In this document: one piece after another, positions 41,162 through 54,029 of the stretch | How the letters are laid out: each line of letters opens with the position of its first letter | Position numbering within the stretch: position 1 is the first letter of the stretch | Assembly (NCBI GenBank): GCA_016649715.1 | Contig: JAENXC010000002.1 | Coordinates: 224,650 to 288,649, forward strand | From: Flavobacteriaceae bacterium | Lineage (GTDB): Bacteria; Bacteroidota; Bacteroidia; Flavobacteriales; Flavobacteriaceae | Length of the DNA: 64,000 nucleotides | Direction: 5' to 3' | Notes under the pieces: model-generated | What the model was told of the DNA's origin: nothing | Databases searched by the model: none | The model's input: the letters and a program-made list of their open reading frames with translations, nothing else | Made by a program: the position numbers and the translations under genes

Positions 41162-42289
41162 ATGGCTTATAAAACTAAATGGGATATAATAATTATTGGT
41201 GGCGGCCTCGCAGGGCTTACAACGGCTTTGCGACTCGTCAACACTAATTGTAAGGTATGCTTGATTGAAAAAAACAAATTTCCCCACCACAAAGTTTGTG
41301 GCGAATATGTTAGCAACGAAGTTTTGCCCTATTTAAATTCCTTGGGGATCGACCCGTTCTCAATTGGAGCCAAAAAGATTTCAAAATTTGAAATAACCGA
41401 CGTCAAAGGTTTTCCTTTAAAAGCAAATTTACCGCTGGGCGGATTTGGTATTAGCCGCTATGCCTTTGACAATCTTTTGTTCGAAGCTTTAAAAGATAAA
41501 ATTGAAATTATTTTTGACACTGTTGAAAAAGTAACTTTTGATGAAAACCAATTTTTGGTCACAACCCAAAGAAAAGATGTTTTAAATGCGGATTTTGTTA
41601 TTGGGGCCTTCGGAAAACGGTCTAATATAGATTCTTTTCTGAACCGAAAGTTTATGCAGCAGCCTTCGCCGTGGCTCGCCGTAAAAGCGCATTATGAATA
41701 TGATTTTCCCGAAGATACCGTGGCATTGCACAACTTCAATGGCGGTTATTGCGGTTTGAGCAAAACCGAAACCAATGCTGTGAACGCTTGCTATCTGGCC
41801 ACTTTCAAATCATTTAAAAAATATGGGGATATTGAAACTTTTCAAAATAAGGAGCTTTCAAAAAATCCTTTTTTGGATACATTCTTCAAAAAAGCGAAAC
41901 CTATTTTCAAAAAACCATTGACCATCAGTCAAATTTCCTTTCAACGAAAAGATCCAGTTGAAAATCATATTTTTATGTTGGGGGACAGTGCTGGGAGCAT
42001 CCATCCGCTTTGCGGAAATGGAATGGCAATGGCAATTAGAAGTTCCCAGATCTTTTCAGAATTATTTCTGAAAGCTTTTCAGAATAAAGATTTTGACAGA
42101 ATCAAATTGGAAAAGGATTATTCAGAACAGTGGCAAAACGAATTTGGGGGAAGGTTGAGGAGCGGAAGATTTATCCAACGCGTTTTGATGAATCCGTTTG
42201 CCTCAAAAGTTGGGTTTTCATTAGCCAAAATAATTCCGCCATTGTTGCCAAAACTTATTGAGAAAACACACGGAAACCCAGCAAAATGA
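41162..42289 (+). CDS. FAD-dependent oxidoreductase of the PKS cluster (geranylgeranyl-reductase-like)
   Basis: The 375-residue protein starts with WDIIIIGGGLAGLTTALRLV, the dinucleotide-binding GxGxxG, then KVCLIEKNKFPHHKVCGEYVSNEV and FMLGDSAGSIHPLCGNGMAMAI, the second FAD motif. This is the large group of flavoprotein hydroxylases and reductases. In this cluster it probably hydroxylates or oxidises an aromatic or polyketide ring. I took ATG 41162; the upstream part of the track ORF passes through the terminator. Its stop overlaps the methyltransferase start in ATGA. A weak promoter match (TTG, 16 bases, TAGCTTTA) lies at 41126-41152. Confidence 0.88.
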   Translation: MAYKTKWDIIIIGGGLAGLTTALRLVNTNCKVCLIEKNKFPHHKVCGEYVSNEVLPYLNSLGIDPFSIGAKKISKFEITDVKGFPLKANLPLGGFGISRYAFDNLLFEALKDKIEIIFDTVEKVTFDENQFLVTTQRKDVLNADFVIGAFGKRSNIDSFLNRKFMQQPSPWLAVKAHYEYDFPEDTVALHNFNGGYCGLSKTETNAVNACYLATFKSFKKYGDIETFQNKELSKNPFLDTFFKKAKPIFKKPLTISQISFQRKDPVENHIFMLGDSAGSIHPLCGNGMAMAIRSSQIFSELFLKAFQNKDFDRIKLEKDYSEQWQNEFGGRLRSGRFIQRVLMNPFASKVGFSLAKIIPPLLPKLIEKTHGNPAK

Positions 42290-43005
42290 TACTATTCAAC
42301 GAAAAATATCGATCCGACCAATTAGAAATAATGGACGATTTGGATTTTCAGGGGGAAGAGATGAAAAATCTTTTGAAAGACCTAAAAGTAGTAAACAAAT
42401 GGCTGGGCGGGAATAATATTACAATCGATGGATTAAAAAAACTATTGAAAAATCATCAAAAAAACAAAAGCATTACCCTATTGGATATTGGCTGTGGCGA
42501 TGGCGAATTGCTTCGGAAATGCAGTGATTTCGGCATTAAAAACAATTTCAAATTTAAATGTATAGGATTGGATTTCAATGAAAATATTTTGAAAGTAGCG
42601 AAAACCAAAAGCAGGGATTATCCAAACATAACTTTTAAAAAAGTTGATGTTTTTTTGAATGAAGAATTGATTCCGAATTGCGATATTGCATTGTGTACCC
42701 TGTTTCTTCATCATTACAGCGATGAAAAAATTGAAGATTTATTGAATACTCTTATAAAAAGAACAAGAATAGGGGTGATAATCAATGATTTGCAGCGAAA
42801 CAGACAAGCATTTAACCTTTTCAAAATAGTGAGTAGATTGTTTCTGAAAACCGAAACCGCAAAACACGACGGATTGGTTTCCATAGCAAGAGGATTCAAA
42901 AAAAGCGAACTTAAAAGCATTTCAAATAAAATTCCAAATCAAAAAAGCTATATACATTGGCGTTGGGCATACCGATTTCAATGGATACTCAAAAAAGATT
43001 TATGA
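42286..43005 (+). CDS. Class I SAM-dependent methyltransferase of the PKS cluster
   Basis: The 239-residue protein has the SAM motif I LLDIGCGDGELLRKCSDFG (residues about 66-84), the acidic loop GLDFNENILKVAK and motif IV DIALCTLFLHHYSDEKI. It resembles small-molecule O- or C-methyltransferases, including those acting on quinones and phenols. Starts and stops overlap in ATGA with both neighbours, which argues for tight co-expression with the flavoprotein and the type III PKS. Confidence 0.88.
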   Translation: MILFNEKYRSDQLEIMDDLDFQGEEMKNLLKDLKVVNKWLGGNNITIDGLKKLLKNHQKNKSITLLDIGCGDGELLRKCSDFGIKNNFKFKCIGLDFNENILKVAKTKSRDYPNITFKKVDVFLNEELIPNCDIALCTLFLHHYSDEKIEDLLNTLIKRTRIGVIINDLQRNRQAFNLFKIVSRLFLKTETAKHDGLVSIARGFKKSELKSISNKIPNQKSYIHWRWAYRFQWILKKDL

Positions 43006-44054
43006 ACGTTAAAATAATCACAGTTGCTAAACAACTTCCCGCACACAGCAGAAACACTGCTGAGGTCATTCCATTTGTAAAACAATGGATGCAGGGGCAA
43101 GACAGCCGTTTTCAAAGAAAAGTGCTAAAAATCTTTGAAGGGGCGGCTGTGGACAAACGCTATTCCATTATGGACCCCATGGAGGTTTTTACAAATACAA
43201 GTTTTGAAGATCGCAATGATATTTACGTCCGTGAAATAACAAAACTGGGCAAACAATGTCTTGAAAAAGCGTTGGAAAAAGCAAGCTGGAAACCAACGGA
43301 CATAGATTTTATAATTACAGTGAGTTGCACGGGAATAATGATTCCTTCCGTGGACGCCTATTTGATAAACGAACTGAAAATGAAGCAGGACATCGTGCGC
43401 CTTCCCGTTACCGAAATGGGTTGTGCTGCCGGCATTTCGGGCATTATTTACGCCGACAATTTTTTAAAGGCAAACCCCGGAAAACGCGCTGCCGTAATTG
43501 CTTTGGAAGCTCCCACGGCCACTTTTCAATTGGAGGATTTTTCGATGGTGAACATTGTTAGTGCTGCAATTTTTGGCGATGGCGCGGCCTGTGTTTTGAT
43601 GTCTTCCAACGAAAAGGATACTGGCCCAGAAATTCTCGCCGAGGAAATGTACCATTTTTATGACGCGACAGATATGATGGGGTTCAAGCTTGTGAATACA
43701 GGGCTACAAATGATTCTCGACAAAAGTGTTCCAGAAAGAATCGCCGAACATTTTCCCGCGATTGTACATCCTTTTCTGAAAAAAAATAATTTGGATATAA
43801 AGGATATAGACCATCTCATTTTCCATCCAGGCGGAAGAAAAATTTTGGAAACTGTTGAAGATTTGTTCGGTAGTTTGGGCAAAAACATTGATGATACCAA
43901 AGAAGTTCTTAAATTGTACGGCAATATGAGCAGCGCCACCGTGCTGTATGTATTGGAACGCTTTATGGACCGAAAACCTGCGAGTGGGGACTTGGGACTG
44001 ATGCTCAGTTTTGGCCCCGGTTTTTCCGCACAGCAGATTCTGTTGAAATTTTAA
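43002..44054 (+). CDS. Type III polyketide synthase (chalcone/stilbene synthase family)
   Basis: The 350-residue protein has the full catalytic triad of the family: Cys141 in EMGCAAGISGI, His275 in LIFHPGGRKIL and Asn308 in YGNMSSATVLYV, and a terminal loop SFGPGFSAQQILL. It condenses malonyl-CoA units onto an acyl starter and cyclises the product. Starter and chain length cannot be read from the sequence; the adjacent ACP and fatty-acid genes suggest a long acyl group. I took ATG 43002, which overlaps the methyltransferase stop. The automatic label chalcone synthase reflects the family only. Confidence 0.93.
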   Translation: MNVKIITVAKQLPAHSRNTAEVIPFVKQWMQGQDSRFQRKVLKIFEGAAVDKRYSIMDPMEVFTNTSFEDRNDIYVREITKLGKQCLEKALEKASWKPTDIDFIITVSCTGIMIPSVDAYLINELKMKQDIVRLPVTEMGCAAGISGIIYADNFLKANPGKRAAVIALEAPTATFQLEDFSMVNIVSAAIFGDGAACVLMSSNEKDTGPEILAEEMYHFYDATDMMGFKLVNTGLQMILDKSVPERIAEHFPAIVHPFLKKNNLDIKDIDHLIFHPGGRKILETVEDLFGSLGKNIDDTKEVLKLYGNMSSATVLYVLERFMDRKPASGDLGLMLSFGPGFSAQQILLKF

Positions 44055-44060
44055 AATCCG

Positions 44061-44090
44061 CTCCCAAACCCTCCCCAAAGGGAAGGGCTT
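44061..44090. repeat. Dispersed repeat R3
   Basis: CTCCCAAACCCTCCCCAAAG followed by GGAAGGGCTT lies between the PKS and reductase genes. It is a diverged copy of the CCCCTTTGGGG family. Confidence 0.55.
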
Positions 44091-44119
44091 AAAAGGATGC
44101 TATTGAAAAGTATAAACTG

Positions 44120-44926
44120 ATGATTAAAAAATCACAAAATGATTTTCCCCCTTTGGGGGAATTAAAGGGGGACTGGGCAATAATTCTCGGTGGCAGTAGT
44201 GGCTTGGGCTTGGCCAGTGCAAAAAAACTCGCTTCGGAAGGGATGAATATTTGTGTTGTGCATCGGGACAGGAAAAGTAAACTGGCAAAGTTTGAAGAAG
44301 AAGTAAAAACAATGGAATCTTTTGGGATTACTGTAAAAACTTTCAACCAAGATGCTTTAAACAGTGAAGTTCGAAATGAAATCGTTAAGCAATTTCAAAA
44401 AAATAGCGTAAAACTTCTTTTGCACAGCATCGCAAAAGGGAGCTTGAAAAAAATGTACGGTGCCGAAAATGAAATTCTCTCAAAGCAGGATTTAGACATC
44501 ACTATTCACGCAATGGCAACGAGCTGGTATGAATGGACACAAGCGTTGGTGCAACAAGAAGTTTTCACAAAGAAAGCAAGAAACATTGCGTTTACAAGCG
44601 AAGGAAACAATAGGGTTTGGCCAGGTTACGGAGCGGTTTCTGCAGCCAAATCTGTACTCGAAGCCTTGATGCGAAATATGGCGGTGGAATTGGCTCCCTT
44701 GGAAATAACGACCAATTGCATTCAGGCGGGAACTACTGTGACACCTTCTTTTTTAGTAATTCCCGGCAGCGAAAAACTTGCGGAAATGGCCAAAATGCGA
44801 AATCCTTTTAACAGGCTCACAAAACCTGAAGATGTCGCAAATGTGGTGTATTTGCTCTGCAAAAAAGAAGCAGATTGGATAAATGGAACCATCCTGAAAG
44901 TGGATGGAGGTGAATGTCTGAGATGA
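44120..44926 (+). CDS. Enoyl-ACP reductase-like SDR (FabI/FabL type)
   Basis: The 268-residue Rossmann protein has IILGGSSGLGLASAKKLA as the cofactor loop, LLHSIAKGS as the FabI-like NSI motif, and YGAVSAAKSVLEAL with the Y-x6-K spacing of enoyl-ACP reductases rather than the YxxxK of ketoreductases. It probably reduces the enoyl-ACP formed by the dehydratase at 44957. Residues about 9-18 (FPPLGELKGD) are the translation of repeat R3 at 44143-44174, so the N-terminus is partly foreign. It lies 65 bases after the PKS gene. Confidence 0.82.
   Translation: MIKKSQNDFPPLGELKGDWAIILGGSSGLGLASAKKLASEGMNICVVHRDRKSKLAKFEEEVKTMESFGITVKTFNQDALNSEVRNEIVKQFQKNSVKLLLHSIAKGSLKKMYGAENEILSKQDLDITIHAMATSWYEWTQALVQQEVFTKKARNIAFTSEGNNRVWPGYGAVSAAKSVLEALMRNMAVELAPLEITTNCIQAGTTVTPSFLVIPGSEKLAEMAKMRNPFNRLTKPEDVANVVYLLCKKEADWINGTILKVDGGECLR
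44143..44174. repeat. Dispersed repeat R3 in the reductase N-terminus
   Basis: TTCCCCCTTTGGGGGAATTA plus AAGGGGGACT reads as FPPLGELKGD in frame. Confidence 0.75.
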
Positions 44927-44956
44927 TTTGCGTTTGACAACTTTAGATATTAGATT

Positions 44957-45415
44957 TTGAAACATAACCAAATTCTTGATTTGCTGCCCTATTCCGAACC
45001 ATTTTTGTTCGTGGATGAAGTGCTTTCTGTTTCGGAAGAAAATATTACGGGCACTTATACTTTTAGTGAAGATGCATTTTTTTACAAAGGACATTTCAAA
45101 AACAATCCAGTAACGCCCGGAGTGATTTTAACGGAATGTATGGCCCAGATAGGGCTGGTATGTCTTGGTATTTATCTTTTAAACAAAGAGAATTTTTCGG
45201 TAAACGCAACATTTGCAATGAACAGCACCGAAATTGATTTTTACTTTCCTGTTTTTCCGGGAGAAAAAGTAATCGTCGTTTCAGAAAAAGTATATTTCAG
45301 GTTTAATAAATTGAAATGTAAAGTGAAAATGATGAACAGCAATGATGAAGTGGTAGCGAAAGGGATTATTAGTGGGATGATAAGCCCTCTAACCCCCAAA
45401 GGGGAAAAACATTAA
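44957..45415 (+). CDS. 3-hydroxyacyl-ACP dehydratase-like (hotdog, FabZ type)
   Basis: The 152-residue protein begins LDLLPYSEPFLFVDEVL and has the FabZ active-site helix GHFKNNPVTPGVILTECMAQ with His and Glu, then FAMNSTEIDFYFPVFPGEKV. It should dehydrate 3-hydroxyacyl-ACP in the cluster's own chain elongation. The start is TTG, which opens directly on the conserved N-terminus. The last ten residues (SPLTPKGEKH) come from repeat R3. The gene follows the reductase by 30 bases. Confidence 0.87.
   Translation: MKHNQILDLLPYSEPFLFVDEVLSVSEENITGTYTFSEDAFFYKGHFKNNPVTPGVILTECMAQIGLVCLGIYLLNKENFSVNATFAMNSTEIDFYFPVFPGEKVIVVSEKVYFRFNKLKCKVKMMNSNDEVVAKGIISGMISPLTPKGEKH
45382..45411. repeat. Dispersed repeat R3 in the dehydratase C-terminus
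   Basis: AAGCCCTCTAACCCCCAAAG and GGGAAAAACA read SPLTPKGEK and bring the current stop. Confidence 0.7.
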
Positions 45416-45495
45416 GAAGAAGAAAAAGAGGAAAGAACAAAGAAAAAATGAAAACAACTAATATTTCCTAAACTCATAAACTTTTAAACACATAA

Positions 45496-46788
45496 TTGAA
45501 AAAGAGAGTCGTAATAACGGGATTGGGAGTGGTTGCGCCAAATGGGGTGGGTATTCCCGAATTTTCGGAAGCCATAAAAAAAGGCATTTCTGGAATCCGG
45601 TTTTTTCCGGAACTGCGCGAGCTTAAATTTTCTTGTCAATTAGGGGCAATGCCAACCATTTCAGAAGAAAAAAAACGGGAATATCTATCGGATCTCCAAC
45701 TTCGTAATTTCAATAGCAGCGGTATTTTATATGGTGTAATAGCAGGAATGGATGCATTGAAAGATGCAAAATTAGAGCCAGCGAAAAGTAATGAAGAACC
45801 CCTTTGGGATTTGGGAATAATCTTCGGAAGTGGCACCAGCGGGGTTGAAAAATTTCGCGAAGCCATTTACAAAATTGACGATAAGAACGTGCGCCGTTTG
45901 GGAAGCAATTCCGTGGCGCAAACCATGACGAGCGGCGTAAGTGCCTATCTGGGCGGGCTTATAGGTGCCGGAAATATGGTTACCGCCAATTCATCGGCCT
46001 GTGCAACTGGAACCGAAGCACTTTTGATGGGTTATGAACACATAGCCAACGGAAAGGCTACCTACATGCTCTGTGGCAGCACCAGCGATTCCGGACCTTA
46101 CATTTGGGGCGGTTTTGACGCGATGAAAGTTACGACCTATAAGTACAACGACTGTCCAGAAAAAGTGGCAGGCCCGATGAGTGCAGATGTCAGCGGTTTT
46201 GTGCCCGGCAGTGGGGCAGGGGCATATTTGTTGGAATCTTATGAAAATGCCAAAAAACGTGGAGCAATCATTTACGCAGAAATTTTGGGCGGAGCCATAA
46301 ACAACGGTGGCCAAAGGGGAGGAGGCAGTATGACTGCACCCAACAGCCAAGCAATTCAAAAATGTATAAAAGATGCCTTGAAAGACGCAAACATTTCTGC
46401 TTCGGAAATTGATTATATAAACGGACATTTAACGGCCACCATCAAAGACCCGGACGAGATTGAAAACTGGAGCATTGCCCTCAACAGAAAAGGGGCTGAT
46501 TTTCCGTATATAAATTCATTGAAAGGAATGGTGGGCCATTGTTTGGCGGCCAGCGGAAGTATTGAGATTGTTTCAGCGATACTTCAGCTTCACGAAGGTT
46601 TTGTTTTTCCGAATGTGAACTGTGAAAAATTGCACCCAAAAATCGTATCTTTGATTTCTTCGGACCTGCCTGCCGGCAAGGCAGGAAAGATTTCAACCAA
46701 ACTCCTAAAGAAACCACTGAAAACAATTGCAAAAGCCAGTTTTGGTTTTGGAGATGTGAATGCATGTGTTATCTTTAAAAAAAATTAA
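45496..46788 (+). CDS. Beta-ketoacyl-ACP synthase (FabF-like) of the PKS cluster
   Basis: The 430-residue thiolase-fold enzyme has the condensing triad Cys169 (NSSACATGTEAL), His311 (INGHLTATIKDPDE) and His348 (KGMVGHCLAASGS). The first His motif is GHLTAT rather than the usual HGTST context, so it is an outlying KAS II. It elongates acyl chains on the ACP encoded three bases downstream. Residues about 391-397 (LPAGKAG) are the in-frame translation of palindrome R1 at 46664-46686, in a surface-loop position before KISTKLL. The start is TTG, needed to include KRVVITGLGVVAPNG. Confidence 0.9.
   Translation: MKKRVVITGLGVVAPNGVGIPEFSEAIKKGISGIRFFPELRELKFSCQLGAMPTISEEKKREYLSDLQLRNFNSSGILYGVIAGMDALKDAKLEPAKSNEEPLWDLGIIFGSGTSGVEKFREAIYKIDDKNVRRLGSNSVAQTMTSGVSAYLGGLIGAGNMVTANSSACATGTEALLMGYEHIANGKATYMLCGSTSDSGPYIWGGFDAMKVTTYKYNDCPEKVAGPMSADVSGFVPGSGAGAYLLESYENAKKRGAIIYAEILGGAINNGGQRGGGSMTAPNSQAIQKCIKDALKDANISASEIDYINGHLTATIKDPDEIENWSIALNRKGADFPYINSLKGMVGHCLAASGSIEIVSAILQLHEGFVFPNVNCEKLHPKIVSLISSDLPAGKAGKISTKLLKKPLKTIAKASFGFGDVNACVIFKKN
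46664..46686. repeat. Dispersed palindrome R1 in frame inside the ketosynthase
   Basis: ACCTGCCTGCCGGCAAGGCA is a copy of the family that reads LPAGKAG. It keeps the frame. Confidence 0.85.
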
Positions 46789-46791
46789 AAC

Positions 46792-47043
46792 ATGACTTCG
46801 GAAGAAATTTTCGCACTTCTTGAACCTATTATTAAAACCTATTTACCCGAGGATGTTTCGGCAAAGGAAATAAACCGCAATAGCGATTTGACCCGCGAGC
46901 TAAACATAAATTCCGCCCATCTTGTGGATATTGTTTTGGACATTGAGGACGTTTTCAAAATTGAGTTCAAAAATGAGGACATGGAAAAACTCCGGAATGT
47001 GAACGACGCTATCTTGCTAATTCAGCAAAAGATTTCTTCTTAA
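46792..47043 (+). CDS. Acyl carrier protein of the PKS cluster
   Basis: The 83-residue acidic protein has ACP shape, with the phosphopantetheine serine in LNINSAHLVDIVLDIEDVF (residue about 40; NS replaces the usual DS). It follows the ketosynthase by three bases. It is distinct from a housekeeping ACP in its weak DSL motif, so it may be dedicated to this cluster and serve as donor to the type III PKS. Confidence 0.9.
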   Translation: MTSEEIFALLEPIIKTYLPEDVSAKEINRNSDLTRELNINSAHLVDIVLDIEDVFKIEFKNEDMEKLRNVNDAILLIQQKISS

Positions 47044-47171: not shown

Positions 47172-47540
47172 ATGAAAAACCTATTTCAAATTTTAGCGTT
47201 ATTTATCAGTCTTTCCGCTTTTTCCCAAGATCCATTTCTTCAAAAATCCAATCCAGAGGCAAAAAAGGAAGCGATCAAAATCACCAATCGTTATATTCCT
47301 GAACTCGCTTTAACAGGAGAAGAGCAATTATTGTTTCAGCAAAAAGTTGAGGAATTTTTGATTCGTAGATATAAAATTGAAGCTGAATTATCAGGAAAGG
47401 AAAAACTCGACCTGCTTTATCAGCTTCAACAACTGGAAACAGATGATATGCGAGATATTCTTACACACCAACAACTACAAGTTTACATGAAAGTTAAACC
47501 AGAAATTCAACCTTTGGAAACCGTGAAGAAAACCGAATGA
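47172..47540 (+). CDS. Exported small helical protein, hypothetical
   Basis: The 122-residue protein has a signal peptide (MKNLFQILALFISLSAFS, cut before QDPF) and a helical remainder rich in Glu, Lys and Leu (LLFQQKVEEFLIRRYKIEAE, LDLLYQLQQLETDDMRDIL). The shape recalls the Spy/CpxP periplasmic helical proteins, though the family is not secured. Its start is 128 bases after the ACP, with a weak promoter match (TTG, 20 bases, TAATTTTA) at 47117-47147, so it is probably not part of the PKS operon. Confidence 0.65.
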   Translation: MKNLFQILALFISLSAFSQDPFLQKSNPEAKKEAIKITNRYIPELALTGEEQLLFQQKVEEFLIRRYKIEAELSGKEKLDLLYQLQQLETDDMRDILTHQQLQVYMKVKPEIQPLETVKKTE

Positions 47541-51788: not shown

Positions 51789-54029
51789 ATGACAAAGCTC
51801 AGAAACGCTTATGCATTAATAATAGGGGTAGGTAGCAAGGATTTACCGGAAACCGTAACAGATGCCAAAGCACTGCACAAAATTTTGGGAAGTAAGGAGT
51901 TTGGTGGATACTATAAAAAGAATATCAAACTAGTAACCAAGAAAAAAGCTACCCGTAAAGGGATTCTTGAAGCTTTTGACCATCTTTTGGAAGTTACGGA
52001 CGAAAAGTCTTCGGTATTGCTCTACTATTCCGGTCACGGTGGCATGTATAGCGATAACACTTTTATTAAGGACGAAGCCCTAAAGAAACCCGAAGCAGAA
52101 AACCAAAAGTATTTTCACCTGTGCCCGTATGATTATGACCCAGATAATTATAAAACAACCTGGATAAAAGCTGAAGAGATAAAGGCTAAAATCCAGCAGT
52201 TAAAATCTCGAAAATTAATTTTCTTTTTGGACTGTTGTCACGCCGCGGGAATGACGGCGGGAGTTTCAGGCTTAAGTGCACAGCAGCCCAGACATACCAA
52301 TGCAGACGGCCTTGCACAAAATTTGGATGACGGACGCGGCATGTCCATCGTTTCCGCTTGCAGGGCAGAACAACTATCCTATGTAATGGAAGGGGATGAA
52401 AACAGTTTGTTTACAAAATGTATGATAGAAGTTCTAAGGGGAGATGACAAACATGAACAAGATGATCCTTTTGTTCGCATTACGGAAGTGGTGCATTATA
52501 TCTTCAAGAAAGTTCCCGAAGTGAACCCTGTACAAAATCCGTATGCAAACCTTCAGATTTCTGACGATTTTATTGTGAGCTTTGTGCAACATTTGGTTCC
52601 AAATGATTCTAAAGATATTGAAGCTAAAGCTTTAGAAGATGATTCAGAAAAGACTATAAAAGAGTCCATTACTAAATTTAGAGAAACAGAAAACAGTAAT
52701 AGTGCCATACTGTTTGTGCACGGGTTTTCCGGAGATGCGGAAAATACCTTTTCCGAAGCGCCGAAATTAATTATGGCAAATGCAGAAATGGATGGTTGGG
52801 ATCTTTTTCCTTTAGGCTATAGCGGTAATGTAGTGCCTGAAATGGGCAAAAACATTTGGGCCTGCGCGAGCGATATTAAAAGAAACTCAGATTATCTGCT
52901 TACTTCAATAAGGAATAAATTCTCAAAATATAAACGAATCGCAATAGTAGCCCACGATTTGGGGGGAATTGTAGCGCAACAGGCTTTGCTGGAATTGGAA
53001 AAGGAGGATTTAAACGGAATAAGCCACGTGCTGTTTTTTGGTACCCCTAGTAATGGATTGCCGGAAATACAGTTAAAAAACTTCTTTACATACGGCAACG
53101 ATGAAAAAGAGCTAAAGGAATCAAGCCCATATATCCAAGAACTTCGGGCGCGCTGGAATGATACTTTTAAAGAGGATTACCCATTCACTTTTAAAACCAT
53201 TGCCGCTACAAGGGATGAGTTTGTTCCAATCTCTTCCAGTTTGGAGCCTTTCCCTAAAGAATATCGTGAAATAATAGAAGGAGACCATTTTTCCATAGTC
53301 CAAATTAAAAAGGAGGAAGATGATGGCTATATCGCTATTTTGAACACTTTGACAAACCAGAGCTTCTTGAATAAATTTTCCAATAAAGAGGAAATCAATA
53401 TTGCGATGGGAGAATACAACGAGGTTATAAATACCCTTCTCCCCAAACTGACAGCCCTTGACAACAAAGGTTTAGAACGATTGATTTACGCCTTGGAAGC
53501 AGCGGGCAGGGAAGAGGAAGCGATGAAAATTTTGAAGGAACACCCAGCGGCAAAAGACAATTCCAATCTGTTGGGAATTATGGGCGGGCGATACAAACGC
53601 CGATATTTGAAAACGTTTTCGGCGGAAGATTTACAAATGGCCTTTAAACACTACAACGATGCCCTAAAGATTTCTGAAGGGAAAAATGATTATTCCCAAA
53701 TATATTACCACGCCATAAACCTAGCTTTTCTCAGTTTGATGAAAGGAGAGAAAGGCGAAATGGCTGCATTTGCAGACCAAGCATACCAAGCCACCGAGAA
53801 AGACCCATTTCCCAGTCTTTGGAAATTTGCAACCATAGCAGAAGCTTTTCTCTATAAAGGCGATTTTGAAAAAGCTAAGGAAAATTACGGAAAAGCCGCA
53901 GCAATGGCTGGTTTGCGCGAAAAGATTTCAATCCATTCCAACGCCTACAACGCTTACGTGAGCTTAATGCAAACCGACAATCCGGATGATCCGTTTATCA
54001 AATTCCTAAAAATCAATTTTTTATCGTAA
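51789..54029 (+). CDS. Caspase-family protease fused to alpha/beta-hydrolase-like and TPR domains
   Basis: Residues 1-265 are a C14 caspase/metacaspase fold: YALIIGVGS at the first strand, catalytic His83 in LLYYSGHGGMYS, and Cys150 in FFLDCCHAAG. Residues about 300-520 form a PGAP1/DUF676-like hydrolase domain: SAILFVHGFSG, the elbow IAIVAHDLGGIVAQQAL, and EGDHFSIVQI with the triad His500. The elbow residue is Asp390, not Ser. Residues about 535-746 hold TPR-like repeats of the type seen in TRAF-binding-domain proteins (GRYKRRYLKTFSAEDLQMAFKHY). The protein probably cleaves cellular proteins when triggered. It is in an operon with the TIR gene. Confidence 0.82.
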   Translation: MTKLRNAYALIIGVGSKDLPETVTDAKALHKILGSKEFGGYYKKNIKLVTKKKATRKGILEAFDHLLEVTDEKSSVLLYYSGHGGMYSDNTFIKDEALKKPEAENQKYFHLCPYDYDPDNYKTTWIKAEEIKAKIQQLKSRKLIFFLDCCHAAGMTAGVSGLSAQQPRHTNADGLAQNLDDGRGMSIVSACRAEQLSYVMEGDENSLFTKCMIEVLRGDDKHEQDDPFVRITEVVHYIFKKVPEVNPVQNPYANLQISDDFIVSFVQHLVPNDSKDIEAKALEDDSEKTIKESITKFRETENSNSAILFVHGFSGDAENTFSEAPKLIMANAEMDGWDLFPLGYSGNVVPEMGKNIWACASDIKRNSDYLLTSIRNKFSKYKRIAIVAHDLGGIVAQQALLELEKEDLNGISHVLFFGTPSNGLPEIQLKNFFTYGNDEKELKESSPYIQELRARWNDTFKEDYPFTFKTIAATRDEFVPISSSLEPFPKEYREIIEGDHFSIVQIKKEEDDGYIAILNTLTNQSFLNKFSNKEEINIAMGEYNEVINTLLPKLTALDNKGLERLIYALEAAGREEEAMKILKEHPAAKDNSNLLGIMGGRYKRRYLKTFSAEDLQMAFKHYNDALKISEGKNDYSQIYYHAINLAFLSLMKGEKGEMAAFADQAYQATEKDPFPSLWKFATIAEAFLYKGDFEKAKENYGKAAAMAGLREKISIHSNAYNAYVSLMQTDNPDDPFIKFLKINFLS

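Follow-up and report, generated by a model that had tools for sequence, protein, structure and literature searches.

The stretch of DNA that we analysed (64,000 nucleotides from a Flavobacteriaceae bacterium, hereafter the window) carries, at 41162-47043, seven plus-strand ORFs. According to the ORF list and to Pfam/NCBIfam matches, these encode, in order, a flavoprotein, a methyltransferase, a type III PKS, an SDR, a dehydratase (DH), a ketosynthase (KS) and an ACP. A preliminary description of this DNA had claimed such a cluster, and all seven ORFs were indeed found in place, each matching the expected Pfam family (FAD_binding_3, Methyltransf_25, Chal_sti_synt N and C, adh_short_C2, FabA-like, ketoacyl-synt and PP-binding, respectively). 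The two ATGA overlaps it reported are visible in the DNA (at 42286-42289 and 43002-43005), and the catalytic residues it listed for the PKS (Cys141, His275, Asn308) and the KS (Cys169, His311, His348) kept the same numbering upon checking. The close packing ascribed to the genes holds better for the relatives than for the window itself, where 65 bases separate the PKS and SDR genes and 80 bases the DH and KS genes (the latter two both starting with TTG). Across 58-75 related loci, the median intergenic distances are near zero (-4, -4, 6, 2, -4 and 8 bases), implying that the gene order is not due to chance. A scan for promoter-like sites gave 17 against 16.4 in shuffled sequences, i.e., no excess, so that no operon boundary could be drawn from the promoter/terminator scan.

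Just after the ACP gene, at 47172-47540 (+), lies a gene for a small secreted-looking protein, conserved at several loci and with no Pfam match. Further downstream (51789-54029, +), a single protein combines caspase, DUF676 esterase and TPR-S sensor domains and resembles effectors of bacterial conflict or anti-phage systems.

The first gene of the operon (41162..42289, +) encodes a 375-aa FAD-dependent oxidoreductase, assigned by Pfam, NCBIfam and fold to the geranylgeranyl-reductase/UbiH/halogenase superfamily. Foldseek matched its AlphaFold model (pLDDT 88) to the PltA/Bmp2, UbiI/UbiH and GGR folds, and its likely role is the oxidation or hydroxylation of a ring. Although PltA and Bmp2 were the top folds, hydroxylases and reductases scored alike, and we rejected an assignment as a halogenase; the WxWxIP halogenase motif was absent from the aligned flavoprotein sequences. 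On the Hymenobacter swuensis plasmid pHsw1 (L258 5001-6116), a homologue of the flavoprotein adjoins an isonitrile synthase and a TauD/TfdA dioxygenase, without any type III PKS, meaning that this flavoprotein family serves other pathways too. A plasmid search for srs/hid references returned flavoprotein homologues only (in Hymenobacter and Bernardetia), with no adjoining type III PKS. The second gene (42286..43005, +), which shares an ATGA overlap with the first, codes for a 239-aa SAM-dependent methyltransferase recognized by Pfam.

The type III PKS gene (43002..44054, +) specifies 350 aa when read from the ATGA start, and this overlap makes 43002 the most likely start position. The protein belongs to the type III PKS family, as it matches Chal_sti_synt N and C above cut-off and, in the alignment, retains the Cys141-His275-Asn308 triad. 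The best PDB folds for its AlphaFold model (pLDDT 84.8) were those of Pks11 and CylI (TM 0.91), Pks11 being the nearest enzyme by both sequence and fold and CylI the second-best fold match. Its best NCBIfam match was DpgA (3,5-dihydroxyphenylacetyl-CoA synthase), an identity that we rejected given a score of 171.5 bits against a cut-off of 425 bits. We also rejected a DarB-type resorcinol synthase, as found in the DarA/DarB cluster for flexirubin/dialkylresorcinol, since the DarB model scored 18.7 bits against a cut-off of 550.

The other four genes are candidates for acyl supply. The SDR (44120..44926, +; 268 aa) is of the enoyl-ACP-reductase type according to Pfam, NCBIfam and alignment, with Tyr170-x6-Lys177; a Tyr-x6-Lys spacing characterizes FabI/FabL-type enoyl reductases, while Tyr-x3-Lys is found in ketoreductases. 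Its best NCBIfam match was FabL, below cut-off. Pfam and alignment identified the next three products as a FabZ-like 3-hydroxyacyl-ACP dehydratase (44957..45415, +; 152 aa, His46 and Glu60), a FabF-like beta-ketoacyl-ACP synthase (45496..46788, +; 430 aa, Cys169-His311-His348) and an ACP (46792..47043, +; 83 aa) in which Asn-Ser41-Ala replaces Asp-Ser-Leu. The KS forms a subfamily of its own: it keeps the triad, carries GHLTAT and SFGFGDVN motifs and shares about 34% identity with housekeeping FabF. The Asn-Ser-Ala motif is at least 95% conserved among 72 sequences, and the catalytic residues are all conserved in 64-76 sequences per gene. In the window's own genome, the housekeeping AcpP has Asp-Ser-Leu, and so does the ACP of the other cluster.

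The operon ACP and KS look dedicated, because the same genome has a separate housekeeping acpP-fabF pair (on contig C55) and a separate KS/ACP cluster (on C48). The latter, at about 150-185 kb (L249, L250), contains several KS, DH and SDR genes and one ACP gene, and is probably of the flexirubin or aryl-polyene type. The operon falls short of a complete type II fatty-acid synthase, as KR, MAT and KS III are missing from it. Thus, the proposal that the cluster has its own fatty-acid synthase set stands insofar as an ACP-based set is tied to the PKS; the set is partial, with FabG, FabD and FabH activities borrowed, and housekeeping enzymes presumably fill the KR, MAT and KS III roles.

In a sample of 201 Flavobacteriaceae genomes, comprising nearly one per genus, the PKS clade occurred in 64, i.e., in about a third of the sampled genera. 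Full-length matches were about 56-89% identical to the window PKS (the window itself excluded), and all remaining PKS matches in these genomes showed 32% identity or less. One copy, counted among the 64, is frame-broken (genome G152, locus L090): the PKS gene lies in two frames (residues 11-121 and 122-356), with the remaining operon genes present, reflecting either a recent pseudogene or a sequencing error. Among Bacteroidota beyond the Flavobacteriaceae, three related families (f2, f60, f61) also had the clade, as did isolated branches of two others (f3, f10), with a gap in identity from 56% down to about 36-38%. At least 570 PKS relatives were confirmed in GTDB genomes. Among the best 80 of these, PKS identity is 82-93% for seven Aequorivita species and for an uncultured member of that genus, 77-78% for two further Aequorivita species and 81% or less for the next genera, placing the window in Aequorivita or something very closely related to it. 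Ulvibacter, Altibacter, Polaribacter, Flavobacterium, Gelidibacter, Psychroserpens and Lacinutrix are also represented in this set of 80.

When each window gene was compared by tblastn with 75 fetched loci of the PKS clade, order and strand were the same nearly everywhere. The flavoprotein and methyltransferase genes were present at all 75 loci, KS and ACP at 71 each, DH at 70 and the SDR at 63, and at 45 of the 75 the operon has the E1-dehydrogenase/OmpA neighbours seen in the window. The operon is ancient. The SDR is missing from 12 of the 75 operons, and mapping its presence onto the operon tree takes about eight changes, with DH, KS and ACP retained. In the genomes with an SDR-less operon, a relocated SDR was not found, the only relatives being 25-31% identical. 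These roughly eight changes, together with the lack of any own-family replacement, indicate from gene content that the SDR is helpful, not essential to the operon.

In 28 of 71 operons, an ORF overlapping or abutting the ACP gene encodes a phosphopantetheinyl transferase (PPTase), which matches Pfam ACPS (PF01648) with 55 bits against a cut-off of 25. Two genomes (G060 and G173) have, besides the operon PPTase, a second one elsewhere. The window operon is without a PPTase, and its genome has a single one, far away on contig C7. In four operons (L050, L057, L058 and L067), the PPTase gene is directly followed by a gene for an MMPL-family transporter, suggesting possible export of the product.

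The dedicated KS gave a strong match in 63 of the 64 genomes with the PKS clade and in none of the 137 others. The associated Fisher p value (6e-52) is uncorrected for relatedness or linkage, and much of the co-occurrence reflects the physical linkage of the genes; consequently, split operons weigh more as evidence. In two genomes from two genera (G146 and G192), the operon stops after the SDR gene, with FAD-MT-PKS-SDR remaining at the original E1/OmpA site, and DH-KS-ACP are found elsewhere, together and in order, adjoining the gene that follows the ACP gene in the window. The two splits probably represent one event, as the PKSs concerned are sisters, albeit weakly supported (91/66). The homologue of the small secreted-looking protein still adjoins DH-KS-ACP where these have moved (L247, L248). 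Retention of the PKS genes without the FAS-like genes, the pattern named in advance as contrary to the proposed association, was not seen in 63 of the 64 genomes. In the sole PKS genome lacking the KS (G139), FAD-MT-PKS-SDR are followed by a histidine kinase gene and DH-KS-ACP were not found in the genome, making it apparently the one real exception to the pairing. The distribution of the KS (63/64 versus 0/137), the maintenance of both halves after the splits and the added PPTases all support the idea that the PKS and the ACP set belong together.

In other Bacteroidota, homologues of the flavoprotein (36-43% identity) and of the methyltransferase (30-37%) adjoin a PKS that is only 27-31% identical to that of the window; we call these operons trios. 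Within the seven-gene clade, by contrast, the PKS is better conserved than the other two proteins. A phylogenetic tree kept the seven-gene and trio PKS groups apart with 100/99 support, to be taken with caution given the long branches, and placed the seven-gene PKS with Pks11, CylI and THN synthase. An AU test, made against the Bacteroidota trios only, rejected a single clade of seven-gene and trio PKSs (p = 4.6e-5). Based on these sequence comparisons, the simplest reading would be that the PKS was swapped in one of the two operon types, or that the same tailoring pair was taken up by each. The parallel that had been drawn with the Streptomyces srs genes applies to the kinds of tailoring enzyme; as to the PKS, a sister relationship of its clade to the Bacteroidota trio PKSs is rejected.

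Taken together, the gene content makes it reasonably probable that the operon serves to produce a tailored phenolic lipid (of the alkylresorcinol or resorcylic type) or an alkylpyrone lipid, with the starter coming from a partial, dissociated fatty-acid system. The ACP would be converted to the holo form by a PPTase, operon-borne in many relatives and presumably the single genomic one here. The KS would then elongate an acyl chain on the operon ACP using malonyl-ACP, with housekeeping FabG carrying out the reduction and with the operon dehydratase and enoyl reductase (or housekeeping FabI) completing the cycle. The resulting acyl-ACP or beta-ketoacyl-ACP would be transferred to Cys141 of the PKS; we infer such priming from the dedicated ACP, KS, DH and ER and from the frequent PPTase. 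The PKS would add malonyl-CoA units and cyclize the chain, after which the ring may be methylated by the methyltransferase and oxidized or hydroxylated by the flavoprotein, a hydroquinone or quinone being one conceivable outcome. Placing methylation and ring oxidation late is likely by analogy, since operons with a methyltransferase, an oxidoreductase and a type III PKS make alkylresorcinols and hierridins. Since 12 of the 75 operons have no enoyl reductase, the chains may be unsaturated, or housekeeping enzymes may suffice. The lack of both a ketoreductase and a loading enzyme in the operon counts against an acyl-supply function. A more specific proposal, which we advance only tentatively, is that a dissociated Asn-Ser-Ala ACP/KS module, often with its PPTase, hands the chain directly to the PKS, leading to an undescribed methylated, oxidized phenolic lipid or quinone that would be a general envelope lipid in about a third of Flavobacteriaceae genera.

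The PKS might instead be primed, as in srs/hid operons, by a common long-chain acyl-CoA or by housekeeping acyl-ACP, the acyl group made by KS, DH, ER and ACP being attached later, e.g., esterified to the phenol. We consider this unlikely, even though the two genera with split operons have the PKS genes and the DH-KS-ACP genes at separate sites and though trio-type operons work without KS and ACP (PMC10896814; L133, L135-L139): no conserved acyltransferase was found in the operon, and the window PKS comes from a different clade than the trio PKSs.

Two further schemes appear improbable. The PKS could make a small aromatic from malonyl-CoA alone, in the manner of DpgA or THN synthase, to serve as a primer or partner for the KS/ACP set. 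DpgA is the best NCBIfam match (171 bits) and, in the comparison with PDB sequences, THN synthase ranks just behind Pks11, but the DpgA score is far below the 425-bit cut-off, the DpgB/C/D partners are absent and the tree gives THN synthase a long branch of its own. Alternatively, KS, DH, SDR and ACP could build a polyunsaturated, aryl-polyene-like chain for a pigment, a scheme with an equally low probability. It would agree with the roughly eight changes in the enoyl reductase on a tree where DH, KS and ACP stay; against it, an ER-type SDR with Tyr-x6-Lys is kept in 63 of the 75 operons, a housekeeping ER can substitute where it is missing, and another KS cluster, of the pigment type, is already present in the genome.

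Of the biosynthetic clusters predicted for Flavobacteriaceae, about 9-11% are type III PKS clusters (PMC7440613, PMC10734526), which also occur in Aequorivita (PMC10608841). In the open-licence literature, we found neither a product assigned to these clusters nor a paper describing the seven-gene composition or its product in this family. Three features look new here: the PPTase in 28 of 71 operons, the Asn-Ser-Ala motif of the ACP and the apparent exchange of the PKS. Since the PKS clade is about 56-89% identical across dozens of genera, one characterized product would probably explain most of these operons.

Operons combining a methyltransferase, an oxidoreductase and a type III PKS direct the synthesis of alkylresorcinols in planctomycetes and of hierridins in cyanobacteria (PMC10896814). 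The window operon shares with these planctomycete operons, with hidABC and with Streptomyces srsABC the adjacency of the three genes; unlike the window operon, they have no KS/DH/ER/ACP set. Among individual enzymes, the closest solved type III PKS is Mycobacterium tuberculosis Pks11, which makes alkylpyrones and is about 28% identical. CylI, from the cylindrocyclophane pathway, has the same fold (TM 0.91) and was solved both with a beta-ketoacyl-SNAC and with a resorcinol product, but is only 24% identical and is not fed by a dissociated set; its substrate is delivered by type I PKS modules. In the Steely PKSs of Dictyostelium (DIF-1 route), an ACP-bound chain feeds a type III PKS, and methylation and flavoenzyme oxidation follow (through a methyltransferase and a halogenase). 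Steely1 is a good fold match of the window PKS, but Steely is a fused type I/III protein in a eukaryote, so that the resemblance is an analogy only.

In the arsABCD operon of Azotobacter vinelandii, the fatty-acid synthase ArsA feeds the type III PKSs ArsB and ArsC, and a PPTase, ArsD, is encoded in the operon (PMC4824345). As in ars, which provides the alkylresorcinols and alkylpyrones of cysts, a dedicated acyl-making system is genetically tied to the PKS in the window. In contrast, ArsA is one large type I protein, whereas the window has a partial set of separate KS, DH, ER and ACP; ars is without a flavoprotein or methyltransferase; and the window has a single PKS, from another clade, and no PPTase (present in 28 of 71 relatives). 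By analogy, the operon is best read as a functional counterpart of ArsABCD, one in which a partial, dissociated (type II) acyl-ACP supply would feed the type III PKS and the product would then be methylated and oxidized. As far as we know, such a dedicated supply would have no precedent among type III PKSs in dissociated (type II) form, the Azotobacter counterpart being of type I.
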